From: Methanobacteriota archaeon | GTDB lineage: Archaea; Thermoplasmatota; Poseidoniia; Poseidoniales; Thalassarchaeaceae | Direction: 5' to 3' | NCBI GenBank assembly: GCA_002712645.1 | Contig: PAUH01000010.1 | Location: 39,101-55,099 of the forward strand | Length of the DNA: 15,999 nt | Shown here: one piece after another, positions 1,630 to 12,937 of the stretch | How the letters are laid out: the number at the start of each line of letters is the position of its first letter | Position numbering within the stretch: the stretch's first letter is position 1 | Notes under the pieces: model-generated | Told to the model about the DNA's origin: nothing | The model's input: the letters and a program-made list of their open reading frames with translations, nothing else | Databases searched by the model: none | Made by a program: the position numbers and the translations under genes

Positions 1630-2226
1630 TCACTCTTCTTCGTCTGATGGTCCGTATTCCATAATTGTGGCCTGGCCGCCACTCAATGAGGCTGCAAGTT
1701 CAGCGCCAGTCATTCCGGCGTCTGAAGCCTGTTTCCTAAACCATGCTCGTACTTTCGTAGACTCGACATCGGGGGCTCCGAAATATTCAGCGAATCTTCT
1801 TGTTGTCATCAGGCGTCTAGTCAATCCATCACGACGTCTGCTAATCAGGCCCATTGCAGATAGTTCGCGAACGTGGTCGTACGCCCTTTGCCCCAGCATA
1901 CCAACCAAAGTCGATTGCGACATTGGCTGGTGGTATGCTATCAATGCAGCAGCGGGCATCAGCCTCTGAGGTATATCTGGACGTACCCCGCCAGGCATTC
2001 GGTCTGAAAGACTGGGTTTCACCTCCATTATCCACCTTCCCGATACCTCAGATACCTGTAAGGCTCCTGATCGTCGGCGTGATAGTGTTGCCCTGAGATT
2101 CGAAAGCGCTCCCTCAACTAGGCCTTCGTCTTCCTGGGCTGCGAATGCGATCTCTCCGACAGTCATTGAGCGGCCCGCGCCGAACAAGATTGCTTCCAGA
2201 ATCGTGGAGAGTTCGGGCTGATCCAT
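1630..2226 (-). CDS. scpB: Segregation and condensation protein B (ScpB)
   Basis: ScpB forms a dimer of paired winged-helix domains that binds the ScpA kleisin and completes the SMC-ScpAB condensin complex. The 198-residue product opens with a typical first helix (LSTILEAILFGAGRSMTVGE, 7-26), has a first winged helix to about residue 80, and a second at about 86-150. The second contains AALIAYHQPMSQ (93-104), a form of the family's LAIIAYKQPIT motif, and ends in RRFAEYFG. A roughly 48-residue tail follows and is acidic at its end. The ATG at 2226 overlaps the scpA TGA by one base (TGATG), so translational coupling is likely. A TTG one codon upstream is open but less likely. It is the third gene of smc-scpA-scpB. 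Confidence 0.9.
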   Translation of the reverse strand: MDQPELSTILEAILFGAGRSMTVGEIAFAAQEDEGLVEGALSNLRATLSRRRSGALQVSEVSGRWIMEVKPSLSDRMPGGVRPDIPQRLMPAAALIAYHQPMSQSTLVGMLGQRAYDHVRELSAMGLISRRRDGLTRRLMTTRRFAEYFGAPDVESTKVRAWFRKQASDAGMTGAELAASLSGGQATIMEYGPSDEEE

Positions 2227-3218
2227 CAAACAGCCTCCTCTATCTCAGGGGGTGGATGCAGTCTCAAGGATAATTCCTCGAAGTCGGATTCGTCCGGGTG
2301 AAGATCAGTCAGAATCACCGATCCATCGATAGCGTCTTTCTGCTCGATTGAGGCATACCCCCTGTTGACCAGAAATAGTGTTGCAACCATTGCCGCGACC
2401 TGTGCTTCAGCATTTGCTTCCTCGCGTATTGTGCCGCTTTCCATGGATCTATCTGCCAGCTCCTCGGATATGGCTGAGAGAGTGCAGGTTTGATCTTCGG
2501 GGTTTGCGCGCATTCGCATGGCCTCCCACGTCCTCCGTATGTCTCCCTCCAAGTCTTCGACGTGCAGGCTCCCGCTGAATCTCTCACGTGCCATTTCAAG
2601 TGAGGCCCTCCGCTTCTCGGCAATCTTTAGACGTAAGTTCTGCTCTTCGGATATCCTGCTGGCAGCTTTCAATCCCATCAAGAGTTCTCCGAGAGTAACT
2701 GGGCGCCCCTCTTCCCTCTGAATTCTTCCAGAAAACATGTCTGGAAGACGTTCCTTGTGAGTTCCGGTTATTATCCCTACAGAGAAATTGTAATCATTGT
2801 CATCAAAATCAGACTCCCAACCACCATCGTAAATCCAAGGCTCATCGACTTCATCCTCGTGATTTTGTCTTTCTATGAGGGTTTCCGCCTGGCCTCTGAG
2901 CACCTGCCATGCCATGCGAATGAGACGGCCGCACGTGGGTAAGTCGATATCTTCTGTATCTTCGATTCTTGTTGAAAACATCTCAAGGAAAGCGGATAAA
3001 TCAACGGCCCATGGATCTAGATCTTTATCCTGAAATAGTTGTAATACAAGTGCTACTGACCTATCAAAGGGATCATTCAGAAATTGATGCTCGGCCTCTT
3101 CCATCTCAGCTAATTCTAGTATCCTATCCAGATAGGCACTAGTCTCCAAATCTACCTCGTCAGTGAGTAATCGAGCTACGATATCGTCGCGTAGGGCCTT
3201 CGCATCAAGGATGCCCAT
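2226..3218 (-). CDS. scpA: Segregation and condensation protein A (ScpA, kleisin)
   Basis: ScpA is the kleisin that bridges the SMC heads and recruits ScpB. In the 330-residue product, residues 48-115 (NDPFDRSVALVLQLFQDKDLDPWAVDL onwards, through LPTCGRLIRMAWQVLRGQAETL) correspond to the family's N-terminal 'GPLDLLL...LDIYDI...AEFLVMAATLLEIKS' region. Residues 270-305 (AAMVATLFLVNRGYASIEQ) look like the C-terminal winged helix that binds an SMC head. The middle, about 118-165, is rich in Asp and Glu, and the protein is longer than the 230-270 residues usual in bacteria. The gene starts 6 bases after the smc stop and overlaps scpB by one base. Assignment rests on sequence pattern plus the diagnostic gene order; the kleisin family is divergent, so context matters. 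Confidence 0.88.
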   Translation of the reverse strand: MGILDAKALRDDIVARLLTDEVDLETSAYLDRILELAEMEEAEHQFLNDPFDRSVALVLQLFQDKDLDPWAVDLSAFLEMFSTRIEDTEDIDLPTCGRLIRMAWQVLRGQAETLIERQNHEDEVDEPWIYDGGWESDFDDNDYNFSVGIITGTHKERLPDMFSGRIQREEGRPVTLGELLMGLKAASRISEEQNLRLKIAEKRRASLEMARERFSGSLHVEDLEGDIRRTWEAMRMRANPEDQTCTLSAISEELADRSMESGTIREEANAEAQVAAMVATLFLVNRGYASIEQKDAIDGSVILTDLHPDESDFEELSLRLHPPPEIEEAV

Positions 3219-8889: not shown

Positions 8890-9840
8890 TCACACAGCAT
8901 TCGCAGTCTCGATTGCTTTCACCAGTGCGTAGAGTGTTGAATTTACAGGCACGGGAACTCCAGACGCCTCAGCCTCTTCGGAAATACGGCCGCAGAGCGA
9001 GTCGATTTCTGTTCTTCGTCCGGACATTAGGTCTTGGAGCATAGAACAGCGGTTGTTAGATGTCGATCTTATCACTTCGATTACCATGCTCTCGATATCG
9101 ATATCAGGAATATCGACCCCCTTATTTCTTGCAACTGTTGCCGCTTCGGATGCCGCTGCTAGGGAAAGTGAAAGAAGATACGGGTCGGACTCTATCATCC
9201 CGTTCTCGAGACCTGCGATAGCACAAATGGGATTAATTGCAACATTGATAATCGCCTTCATCCATATCGAAGAATTGAGATCTTCGGACCATGATGGTTT
9301 GAGGTTGGCATTCTCAAAAGCCTGAATCAGAGACGTTTCGATCTGTCCGGGGGACTTTCTCTCAAGAGATCCCACAGTTATACTTCCAAAACCAGCCCAA
9401 TGTATCCCCCCAGAATCGTCTTTCCAAGCACCATGAGTGGTCGAGCCCCCTAGTACCCTTTCTTTACCGATAATCTCGTTCAATTTCTCGACATTGCCCA
9501 GGCCATTCTGTAGACTCAGGACCATTCCAGACTGGGTGAGTACTTTGCGAGCAATCCGACCGAGTAGCTCGGTATCTCCTGACTTTCCGCATATTATTGC
9601 GATGTCGATCGATTTCGACACTTGGGACGCTTCTTCATCTATCGAGGTATCAACGACTTCAAATCTACCTGGAGGGATCATCTCGATTGGACCATCGTGA
9701 CGATGTAGTACCAATCCCTCAGCAGAGAGTCGTAGCGCTGTTTCTGCTCTGGATACGGCAACCAGATCGTGATCTGTCGTACTGAGCGCTCCTAAGATTA
9801 GTCCGCCTATTGATCCAACGCCAAGTACGGCTATGCGCAT
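8890..9840 (-). CDS. panE: 2-dehydropantoate 2-reductase (ketopantoate reductase, PanE/ApbA family)
   Basis: Ketopantoate reductase makes pantoate with NAD(P)H for coenzyme A synthesis. The 316-residue product begins with the nucleotide-binding motif MRIAVLGVGSIGG (1-13), has SLQNGLGN (109-116) with the family Asn at 112, WMKAIINVAINP with the catalytic-type Lys at 195 and Asn at 199, and a C-terminal segment with S266 and RTEID (276-280) carrying the conserved Glu 278. Length is normal for the family. The start at 9840 is chosen because the GxGxxG motif then sits at the extreme N-terminus, a GGGAGG lies 9 bases upstream, and the ATG overlaps the upstream gene's TGA by one base. A longer reading frame from 9864 would add eight residues inside the upstream gene. 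Family members with other 2-oxoacid substrates exist, so the exact substrate is inferred. Confidence 0.85.
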   Translation of the reverse strand: MRIAVLGVGSIGGLILGALSTTDHDLVAVSRAETALRLSAEGLVLHRHDGPIEMIPPGRFEVVDTSIDEEASQVSKSIDIAIICGKSGDTELLGRIARKVLTQSGMVLSLQNGLGNVEKLNEIIGKERVLGGSTTHGAWKDDSGGIHWAGFGSITVGSLERKSPGQIETSLIQAFENANLKPSWSEDLNSSIWMKAIINVAINPICAIAGLENGMIESDPYLLSLSLAAASEAATVARNKGVDIPDIDIESMVIEVIRSTSNNRCSMLQDLMSGRRTEIDSLCGRISEEAEASGVPVPVNSTLYALVKAIETANAV

Positions 9841-12284
9841 CAGGTACATCCTCCCGATGGGCATCTAGCTGCGAGGTGAAGGATTGCTCCATTGTCATCA
9901 GTGGTGAGCCATACGGAGCCGAAAACTCCTCCGCCACTATCGAAGCTAACTGTTACCTCTGCGGATTGGTTTGCAGCTATCGAATCAGGGCCCTCGACAT
10001 ACCAGACGTCAAGAGATGGCACGTCTCCAGACCATTCCCTGCTCACTGTAACTGTCATATTCTCCCTATTCTCGATTGAGAATGTCTCCGAATCAATAGC
10101 TATGCCCATGCCTGAAACTGATGATTGGATATCTAGGCCCTCTTTTATCCTCAGAACCTCGATCATCTCACGACCTTCACACACAGCCACCCAACCCTCA
10201 GAAGGGATTGTTAGATTGACTGAGATGGGATTGGAGGAGAGTATCAATGATGCAGTTCCGAGATTCCAATCGATGGGTCCGTCGAGATTTGTATGGGTAT
10301 CCATAGAAGATGTTTTTACGCAACTGGGATCGAAATCAGGGTTTCCATGGGATATTCTGACATTTGGAATGAGCATCCTATCCGGGACGCTCCAATTGCC
10401 ACTTGGCAGGCCTAACCAGGATTCGCTCGCTTTTATGGGGAGTCGCCAAGAACGTGCATCCCCCTGGTCTTCTCCTTCAGGCGTGAATATGATTTCTGGG
10501 GCCATCGCTCGCCCTCTGTCGTCCCTATCGGCGCCTTCTATGGCCCCTGGTAGAGGTTCTATGCAATGCCTACTCCGAACACCGGGTTCCATCTCAGTGT
10601 TCTCCGATAACCAGAATGGGTGGTCCACGGACCAGACACCTGGGTCGTCAATGGATGTCTCGATATCGATACATGCAGATGTGGAATTTCCTTCCAACAA
10701 CCAAGAAGACGAGAAAGGTGCACTTCCGCCTGGGATTGTGACGAGTATCGGATGCTGTCTGATAGTGACTCCGTCGTCGATTGTGAGAATTATTCTGGCT
10801 GGATGTACTAGATATGATTCAGGCGGATTGGATACCAGCTTCAGCGAAATCTTTTGCTCATTACTCTGGATGATATTCTCGAATTTGATCTCATCAACTG
10901 TGGTACCATCTGAATTCGTGACTTGCCAACCCGATTCAGAGGGGTCATCGATTTCAATCGCGATTTCCCCTGACAGGGGTATCGCCCCAATAGGAATGAG
11001 TGGAATTTCGAAATCTTGTGTGTCATTAACCTCGATACTTGATGGCCACGGTGTTGGGTCCAATCCCTCCGACCATTGTTCAAATTCATTGGCAGGGGAC
11101 ATTCCAGGAACCCCGAGAAGAAGTATGATGACTGTTGCAGCAGCATATCTCTCGAGAGATTCTCTTGGGAATCCATCGGCCAAGTTGACTACAAGAGGGG
11201 GTCTGAGCTGATCATTGCCGAAACGTCGCATACAGGCAATTGTTGCAATCAGTAACCATGGTACGAAGTCGCTTGAAACGAATACGAGGACCAAGGCACC
11301 CAGAGACGCTACAAATAGCATATTCTGAGAAGAAATATCCAGATGTCGCTCACTCCCCATTATGGCTGAAAGGATCCTATCTCCCGGGAGACCTGGAATC
11401 GGAAGTAACAGCAACCATCCAAGAACGCTCAAGGACAATCCTGCAAGACCCAGTGGGTGAATCCACTGAAGCCTGATTCCGACATCTGATTCGATTAGTA
11501 GCGGTGCGATTAGATTTGGTATGACGCTGCCGTGGAATACCAGTGGAGCAGATGCGAGATTCTCTGGGGGCGAGGAGGGGGTGAGGAGTATCCCTGCCAG
11601 AATTAACGGCTGACCTACTATGAATAGGATAGCAGGGATGGTTATCTCGATTTTGGCAAGTGTCCTTCTATCTGGAACGGGGGTGTGTTCGGAACTCTTC
11701 TGACTGAAGAGCCCAAAGAGTCCGAAAGGCCACCATATAGGTGAAATTTGAGGGATGGCGAGCGGTATTATCTGGCCAGACCTGATGCCTGCGTCTCGAT
11801 TCATCCTTCGCTTACACTCGCTGGCGAATGCCAACGTGAGGATGAGCGGCAAGACGTAGTATAGTATCGAAGTGACATACGTATTTCCAGGGGCGCCGAC
11901 ATTCCTGGACCATGCGCTTCCTGCGAATATGGCCATGATTGCTGAGAATAGCCAAATCGAGGTCAATTGCCACGCAGGGAGTATTTCGGACCCGTAGGAC
12001 CTGTCCCTGATTGTTAGAGTGGGGGGATCCATGGAGCTTATGGTTCCAATGAGTCCAAGTTCGACTAGTTCTTCATTGAGTCTTGAAATGGCATCTCCGT
12101 TTGAGTAGCCTGATCTGGCTTCGACTATCCAAGAGTATCGACTTATTGATTCGTCGCCGATGATGAAAAAGCGGGATGCCATACGCTCGATTAGTTCAGA
12201 ACGAGACCATTCTCTGCGGTGAATGGCGATGGTATTCTGCCCTGCCAAGTGTATCTCTCCGGGAATGTCACCCCGGGGAGTCAT
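9840..12284 (-). CDS. Site-2-protease-like (M50) membrane protein, predicted inactive, with large beta-rich C-terminal region
   Basis: The N-terminal 390 residues resemble archaeal/plant EGY-type site-2 proteases. A soluble domain (about 30-95) precedes membrane segments near 107-125, 135-155, 212-234, 277-298, 322-346 and 380-396. The conserved framework is recognisable: TPVPDRRTLAKIEITIPA (201-218) for the family's IPNRKALFDIGIAGP, and WIHPLGLAG (274-282) leading into LLLLPIPGLPGD (291-302) for NLLPIGQLDGG. The catalytic residues are gone: the HExxH position reads S155-E156-C157-K158-R159, and the LDGG aspartate is P300. Residues 397-814 are hydrophilic, beta-rich and contain six cysteines (538, 574, 655, 702, 808, 813), probably outside the membrane. 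ATG 12284 is the furthest upstream usable start; no Shine-Dalgarno precedes it. It lies 35 bases after atpD and overlaps panE. A non-proteolytic binding or scaffolding role is plausible but not shown. Confidence 0.7.
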   Translation of the reverse strand: MTPRGDIPGEIHLAGQNTIAIHRREWSRSELIERMASRFFIIGDESISRYSWIVEARSGYSNGDAISRLNEELVELGLIGTISSMDPPTLTIRDRSYGSEILPAWQLTSIWLFSAIMAIFAGSAWSRNVGAPGNTYVTSILYYVLPLILTLAFASECKRRMNRDAGIRSGQIIPLAIPQISPIWWPFGLFGLFSQKSSEHTPVPDRRTLAKIEITIPAILFIVGQPLILAGILLTPSSPPENLASAPLVFHGSVIPNLIAPLLIESDVGIRLQWIHPLGLAGLSLSVLGWLLLLPIPGLPGDRILSAIMGSERHLDISSQNMLFVASLGALVLVFVSSDFVPWLLIATIACMRRFGNDQLRPPLVVNLADGFPRESLERYAAATVIILLLGVPGMSPANEFEQWSEGLDPTPWPSSIEVNDTQDFEIPLIPIGAIPLSGEIAIEIDDPSESGWQVTNSDGTTVDEIKFENIIQSNEQKISLKLVSNPPESYLVHPARIILTIDDGVTIRQHPILVTIPGGSAPFSSSWLLEGNSTSACIDIETSIDDPGVWSVDHPFWLSENTEMEPGVRSRHCIEPLPGAIEGADRDDRGRAMAPEIIFTPEGEDQGDARSWRLPIKASESWLGLPSGNWSVPDRMLIPNVRISHGNPDFDPSCVKTSSMDTHTNLDGPIDWNLGTASLILSSNPISVNLTIPSEGWVAVCEGREMIEVLRIKEGLDIQSSVSGMGIAIDSETFSIENRENMTVTVSREWSGDVPSLDVWYVEGPDSIAANQSAEVTVSFDSGGGVFGSVWLTTDDNGAILHLAARCPSGGCT
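9850..9855 (-). promoter_or_regulatory. Shine-Dalgarno of panE
   Basis: GGGAGG on the minus strand, 9 bases before the panE ATG at 9840. It lies inside the last codons of the upstream membrane-protein gene and supports both the shorter panE start and translation from a shared message. Confidence 0.65.
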
Positions 12285-12319: not shown

Positions 12320-12330
12320 CTATTTATTCT
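12320..12330 (-). promoter_or_regulatory. Possible TATA-like element for the pseudoprotease gene
   Basis: On the minus strand GAATAAATAG overlaps the atpD stop codon and lies about 40 bases before the ATG at 12284. It is the most TATA-like sequence in the gap and, with the missing Shine-Dalgarno, would fit a separate message with a very short leader. Read-through from atpD is equally possible. Confidence 0.28.
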
Positions 12331-12937
12331 TGAATCGCTTTAGACGGAATGTCTCCTCGCGCTCCATTTCTTCGAGTCTTAATTGAATAAATGTCTGTGC
12401 CTCCTTCATTTCAGGGATGACCTTGAATTCAAGTGCATTCACTCTTCTTTTCGTGGCTTCTATTTCTGCAAGCAGTTTCTTGAGAGTTGCTTCCATCTCA
12501 GCAGCCTTTACGATGTTCTCGATTAGATTGGAATAAGCATCTGCTGCTTCATCGATATACGCCGATCCGCCAATGAGCCCTATACCGCGCTCTTGGATTG
12601 TTGAAGTGAGATGCTCCCCCGTTACGCTTGGGACGACGACGCCCATGATATTGCGCTTCGAAACTTCAACTTCGGGACGAGTGGCAATCGCAATAGCGGT
12701 GCTTTTGACGGGGAGCGCGCCCTCTATGCTGCTTGCAAGGCTGATTGACTTGATAGCGGCTCTGTAAGCCTCTAGCAGATCTTCTCGCGCTTTTATCATG
12801 TCTGCAAGGAGCATTCTGAACTCGTGAAAGAGTCCGTCCCTCTTCATTTTGAGAAGTTTGTACCCATTCTGGGTCTGCTTGATGCGTCGCTTGAGGTTGA
12901 TTAGTTCACTTCGAGTTGGTTTGATATCCAAAGCCAA
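12320..12937 (-). CDS. atpD: A-type ATP synthase subunit D (central stalk)
   Basis: Subunit D is the long coiled-coil rotor shaft inside the A3B3 head of the archaeal ATP synthase. The 205-residue product matches the family from end to end: the MALDIKPTRSELINLKRRI start, a long N-terminal helix, a central GVVVPSV and GIGLIGGSAYIDEAADAY segment (about 100-133), and a long C-terminal helix ending in a Glu/Arg/Lys-rich tail. Its length is normal. The start is a TTG at 12937; it gives the family N-terminus and is preceded by a near-perfect Shine-Dalgarno. The gene begins 36 bases after the atpB stop, as expected for the A-B-D order of archaeal atp operons. Confidence 0.95.
   Translation of the reverse strand: MALDIKPTRSELINLKRRIKQTQNGYKLLKMKRDGLFHEFRMLLADMIKAREDLLEAYRAAIKSISLASSIEGALPVKSTAIAIATRPEVEVSKRNIMGVVVPSVTGEHLTSTIQERGIGLIGGSAYIDEAADAYSNLIENIVKAAEMEATLKKLLAEIEATKRRVNALEFKVIPEMKEAQTFIQLRLEEMEREETFRLKRFKNK

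Follow-up and report, generated by a model that had tools for sequence, protein, structure and literature searches.

The window considered here, the whole 15,999-nucleotide stretch of archaeal contig PAUH01000010.1 that was analysed, carries on its minus strand an intact gene for a homologue of EGY-type site-2 proteases (family M50) in which both the HExxH and the LDGG motifs of the active enzymes have been lost. "EGY-type" is used as our own label for the subfamily. An earlier note on this DNA had proposed a maintained pseudo-site-2-protease, a proposal borne out by profile and structure comparisons that point to M50 and by orthologues that also lack the ligands. The protein probably binds membrane clients and leaves them uncut, acting as a holdase, adaptor or decoy. 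Its order, which we take to be Poseidoniales (marine group II), comprises the families designated f1 and f2; the sister family f3, of the same class, is presumably marine group III, and a marine habitat is likewise presumed. Coordinates of all features are collected in Table 1.

The loss of catalytic residues was examined in an alignment of 61 distinct order orthologues with 14 active relatives from the phylum. The 61 comprise the window's copy and its orthologues after removal of ten duplicate loci, and two of them are partial; the active relatives come from 14 of the 16 best-scoring among 72 genomes outside the order with a match. The ligands are missing from the orthologues too, so the window's copy is not an isolated mutant. 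The H, E, H and D of the two motifs are each present in 14/14 active relatives, and HExxH is absent from all 60 orthologues with letters at that site, the remaining one having a gap. Position 154 is A in 49/60 and H in none of the 60; position 155, the place of the catalytic glutamate, is S in 57/60 and never E (0/60); position 158 is R, Q or K in 59/60 and H in one. The earlier note had read the site as SECKR. Neither reading leaves zinc ligands, but the register is shifted by one, to ASECK at residues 154–158 rather than S155–R159. Its reading of the LDGG aspartate as proline agrees with the alignment, in which P300 and P297 are each found in 61/61 orthologues; alanine occupies position 300 in G257 and P0024, both outside the 61. 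Position 292 is N in no order orthologue, and N precedes LLP in 13 of the 14 active relatives. Judged from these columns, the former active site is not merely drifting, with S155, P297, P300 and W185 (61/61) fixed.

Fixed residues might instead belong to a protein that is still an enzyme, acting via a different metal site or a newly acquired catalytic residue, and the polar core residues H276 (58/61) and R303 (57/61, otherwise H) are conserved alongside S155. However, the alignment of 61 orthologues shows no clear conserved group of replacement metal ligands, and H276, at the start of the fourth transmembrane helix (TM4) and 24 residues before P300, is common to the active relatives (12/14) and probably lies far from S155 in space. 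Continued catalysis is therefore regarded as highly improbable.

The gene is real, intact and under purifying selection on both halves. Its open frame begins with ATG and encodes 814 residues, and the absence of decay remarked in the earlier note extends to its relatives: the gene is matched in 59 of 60 searched, with no stop inside any matched stretch of that set. The sole exception, G017, likely reflects an assembly gap, because the match to atpD, the adjacent gene, is also missing there. A second genome search matched the gene in 47/48 order genomes. Two copies look broken, one split over two overlapping frames (L026, G016:C9) and one with a single TGA within the matched stretch (L053, G200:C8), through either assembly error or real decay; the G023 copy is divided between two contigs. 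Ratios of nonsynonymous to synonymous substitution (dN/dS) within the genus are 0.062–0.082 for the full length (10 pairs), 0.040–0.078 for the membrane half (15 pairs) and 0.073–0.093 for the tail (10 pairs), the full-length and tail values being based on 10 of the 15 genus pairs, with those involving L006 left out. Residues 285–305 show a dN of 0–0.045 in 15 genus pairs, and the stretch 140–165 is less constrained (dN/dS 0–0.278 in genus pairs). On the spread of orthologues, the alignment and the dN/dS values, a random mutant or a decaying copy was rejected.

The protein is a homologue of EGY-type site-2 proteases by common descent. Comparison of its profile with that of active EGY-type proteases by hhalign gives E 2.4e-28 over an alignment running from residue 27 through the membrane core, and E 1.4e-29 when sister-family rows are added, the best of 20 column shuffles reaching E 0.17. 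Residues 20–100 alone match active EGY-type proteases at E 1.1e-6, and the transmembrane part gives E 4.3e-22. When 5.8 billion proteins were searched with a profile, annotated M50 proteins were matched at E 3.2e-7 to 9.0e-4. The core was modelled separately because fold searches with the whole model were filled by beta domains, with no site-2 protease among the best 50 rows of each; the best structural matches of the core-only model are site-2 proteases, and the model has the S2P core fold. No rhomboid is found among the best 50 rows of the core-model search, a listing that by its nature excludes nothing. The absence of any relation to M50 was rejected on the profile search, on hhalign with its shuffles and on the fold matches of the core model. 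The protein is not recognised by Pfam or NCBIfam at their cut-offs, M50 appearing in Pfam for the single protein only at E 0.16, below that database's cut-off. A profile search of the sequences of solved structures yielded nothing but WD-repeat chains (E 0.026 or worse), which were disregarded.

Of the two M50 types compared, the protein belongs by sequence to the EGY type: an N-terminal domain precedes TM1, no PDZ domain is found among its Pfam matches, and it is closer to this type than to the classical, PDZ-type M50 proteins. The pseudoprotease profile matches two classical M50 sequences at E 0.25, though active EGY-type proteases match the same two at 0.00017. This distance bears on the idea that the protein acts as a regulator of a classical site-2 protease in its own cell, competing for the substrates of that protease or presenting them to it. 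Precedent comes from iRhoms, which are reported to prevent rhomboid cleavage through substrate destabilisation (PMC3149277) and to participate in ADAM17 maturation (PMC7554728). A potential partner exists in an intact classical M50 protein of the same genome (about 520 aa, with HEYGH and FDGG), and an M50 match over the cut-off occurs in 279/292 class genomes. Nevertheless, the two profiles are far apart, the two genes lie on different contigs and no shared substrate is known, and such regulation seems unlikely.

Binding of membrane clients without cleavage is the most likely role by analogy with characterised site-2 proteases. In the SpoIVFB structures as described in PMC11486902, the substrate adds a strand to a membrane reentrant loop between TM2 and TM3, in the wild type and also in E44Q, without zinc density; binding is therefore separable from cutting. 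The counterpart of this loop is kept in the archaeal protein with a fixed W185-P186-F187 (61/61, 59/61 and 60/61 orthologues, respectively), from which we infer a client-binding scaffold. The model forms two strands here, at low confidence, this being the region of which it is least sure. The N-terminal domain is modelled as helix-strand-strand-helix-strand-strand. Transmembrane or membrane-proximal segments of clients would enter the former substrate cleft and lie against the reentrant beta-loop, and a client held there could not be cut, so that the protein may serve as an adaptor, a decoy or a holdase. Its tail, external and probably disulfide-bonded, could recognise the outer part of the client or a signal from outside. 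Plant EGY3 is described along broadly similar lines, as a dead family member that helps other proteins to stay stable. A bolder and rather doubtful version is that of an intramembrane holdase or receptor whose reentrant loop takes hold of orphan or unfolded membrane segments through strand addition, with an Ig-like, disulfide-bonded ectodomain of ~420 residues reading the outside; the protein would then be a first counterpart in prokaryotes to EGY3 and the iRhoms.

The tail, described in the earlier note as roughly 400 residues with six cysteines, extends over residues 396–814 (419 residues, with cysteines at 538, 574, 655, 702, 808 and 813). Loop charges place it outside the cell in the prediction, and it is probably disulfide-bonded; the last two positions hold cysteine in 32/61 orthologues each. 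A protein whose membrane half is a mere anchor or export frame, with its function as a surface receptor or adhesin residing in the tail, would be in keeping with a tail of 397–463 residues in 60/61 copies, with 6 or 8 cysteines in 60/61, with the Ig-like fold of the first tail domain and with the location of all six N-glycosylation sequons of the protein in the tail. The membrane half is, however, at least as constrained as the tail by dN/dS, and the former active-site residues are fixed rather than drifting, which makes a mere anchor quite unlikely.

The earlier suggestion that such a tail is foreign to ordinary S2P proteins does not survive comparison with the active relatives from the phylum, 8 of 14 of which carry 126–356 residues after the core, shorter than this tail. 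The active sister-family sequence L112 likewise continues beyond its last transmembrane helix. The tail as a hallmark setting the protein apart was thus rejected, since active relatives carry tails. A protein search with the tail alone gave no match at E 0.001 among 2758 candidates, and hhalign of the tail against active relatives gave E 0.18, a value that does not support tail homology. As a separate observation, stretches similar to positions 360–563, the tail section in the profile of active EGY-type proteins, recur within the class in very large frames of up to about 3,190 residues, one example being G242:C3:109017-109391.

The distribution of active and inactive forms was surveyed by running a profile of active EGY-type proteins against 118 class genomes. 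A strong match (E below 1e-119) is present in 21/21 genomes of the sister family, and all 21 fetched sequences carry both HExxH and LDGG. The other 97 genomes include 41, all of the order, with a match at E 1e-5, and 56 without one, 36 of which are not among the genomes listed. By listed range and frame length, the 41 are judged to be either the pseudoprotease gene or Ig-like regions within other large proteins; frames were read for nine order loci from this search, none with HExxH, and for three others. An intact EGY-type protease was found neither in the order nor in any of the 97 class genomes searched outside the sister family. In a tree of 48 core sequences, a branch supported at 100/100 separates the 24 pseudoprotease rows from the rest; the tree does not place the sister family as their closest relatives. 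Most simply, the catalytic residues were lost once, before the order diversified, and the inactive form apparently replaced the active one there. An extra match in G207 corresponds to a different, small M50-like frame (L158, G207:C85, minus strand, 289 residues, with HELAH and PLDG motifs) that resembles neither the classical nor the EGY type.

The gene neighbourhood raises the further idea that the protein helps to assemble or control the A-type ATP synthase, with which it is probably co-transcribed. Directly upstream lies atpD in 61/61 order loci; in 60 of them the distance from the atpD stop to the first possible start codon is -4 to 112 bases, and in the broken G016 copy it is 546. The string atpA-atpB-atpD-gene-panE, however, is found as a unit in 15/15 loci of up to 20 kb, and the more distant nadB and smc are kept in 12 and 13 of these, respectively; because the whole string is conserved, linkage to atpD is weak evidence, and as proof of an ATP-synthase role it was rejected. 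Moreover, all 5 sister-family genomes in which both genes could be placed carry atpD and the active EGY-type gene on separate contigs, and no EGY-type gene lies beside atpD in the three atpD loci inspected. A function tied to the ATP synthase is accordingly held to be distinctly improbable. In four sister-family loci the active gene adjoins a gene that we label dihydroorotase-like, not atpD.

Beyond panE in the window follow an FAD-dependent oxidoreductase gene (labelled nadB by us), smc, scpA- and scpB-like genes and an HMG-CoA reductase gene. The gene at 2226-3218 (minus strand) is ScpA by position, between smc and scpB, and is a divergent form (Pfam ScpA only at E 0.034) present in 12/15 loci. 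Nine f1 loci (L013-L016, L018, L019, L022, L053 and L055) have no nadB downstream of panE within the fetched stretch, and smc follows panE in L018, L019 and L055.

Table 1. Positions, in the window, of the pseudoprotease gene, its parts and its neighbours.
Feature	Position	Strand	Evidence or remarks
Pseudo-site-2-protease gene	9840..12284	minus	ATG, 814 codons; EGY-type M50 core and external beta-rich tail
N-terminal alpha/beta domain (residues 26-95), predicted cytoplasmic	12000..12209	minus	hhalign match in active EGY-type proteases
TM2 (residues 135-164)	11793..11882	minus	Helix bearing HExxH in active relatives
Former HExxH site, ASECK (residues 154-158)	11811..11825	minus	Alignment with active relatives
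Counterpart of membrane reentrant beta-loop (residues 173-193), conserved WPF	11706..11768	minus	Alignment; model
Former LDGG site, PIPGLPGDR (residues 295-303)	11376..11402	minus	P300 replaces zinc-binding aspartate
TM5-TM7 (residues 317-391)	11112..11336	minus	Model helices 317-337, 342-355, 374-391
Tail (residues 396-814), predicted external, all beta	9843..11099	minus	Contains six cysteines and six N-glycosylation sequons
First tail domain (residues 408-519), Ig-like fold	10728..11063	minus	
Stretch with conserved C538, C574, C655, C702	10179..10673	minus	61/61, 61/61, 60/60, 58/60 orthologues
Upstream neighbour atpD, subunit D of A/V-type ATP synthase	12320..12937	minus	Pfam E 6.2e-55
panE/apbA-type ketopantoate reductase	8890..9864	minus	Pfam E 5.2e-34; overlaps 3' end of the pseudoprotease gene by 25 bases

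Among known systems, active EGY-type proteases, of which P0028-P0030 are taken by us to be cyanobacterial, share with this protein the N-terminal domain, the transmembrane core, the loop region, the HP of the core and the last transmembrane helix, together with a tail in the 8 phylum members noted above; they differ in their intact HExxH and LDGG, found in 14/14 phylum relatives and 21/21 sister-family copies. The iRhoms, with which the earlier note drew an analogy, are not known to be homologous to M50. The analogy stands insofar as they are described as regulatory proteins related to an intramembrane protease but inactive; their relatives are rhomboid serine proteases (PMC3149277), and plant EGY3, a pseudoprotease of the same family, is the closest precedent. 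EGY3 is reported as a thylakoid protein found only in plants, lacking HExxH and classed as a pseudoprotease, that affects the stability of, or stabilises, other chloroplast proteins (PMC9355673, PMC10978774). Both are site-2-protease family members without HExxH conserved through a lineage; the archaeal protein differs in that the aspartate of LDGG is missing as well, and in its tail of about 420 residues. Judging by the lineages, the two would have arisen independently. The solved site-2 proteases mjS2P (3b4r) and SpoIVFB (8vjm) are, unlike this protein, active metalloproteases, and SpoIVFB is described with a C-terminal CBS domain (PMC11486902).

Searches of the open-access literature found, among the papers listed (12 of 205 for M50 non-peptidase homologues), no archaeal inactive site-2 protease or M50 non-peptidase homologue. 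Proteins of this kind are already known; what is new, as far as these searches go, is the lineage, together with the large external tail and the apparent displacement of the active form. A gene that occurs in 59/60 relatives, and that Pfam and NCBIfam miss at their cut-offs, thereby gains a likely identity. The site-2-protease scaffold seems to have been turned to a use other than cleavage, and the dead form is kept through two families of the order in which no active EGY-type protease was found, while the sister family keeps the active one. Together they offer a before-and-after pair for asking, in single cells, what a dead intramembrane protease does.
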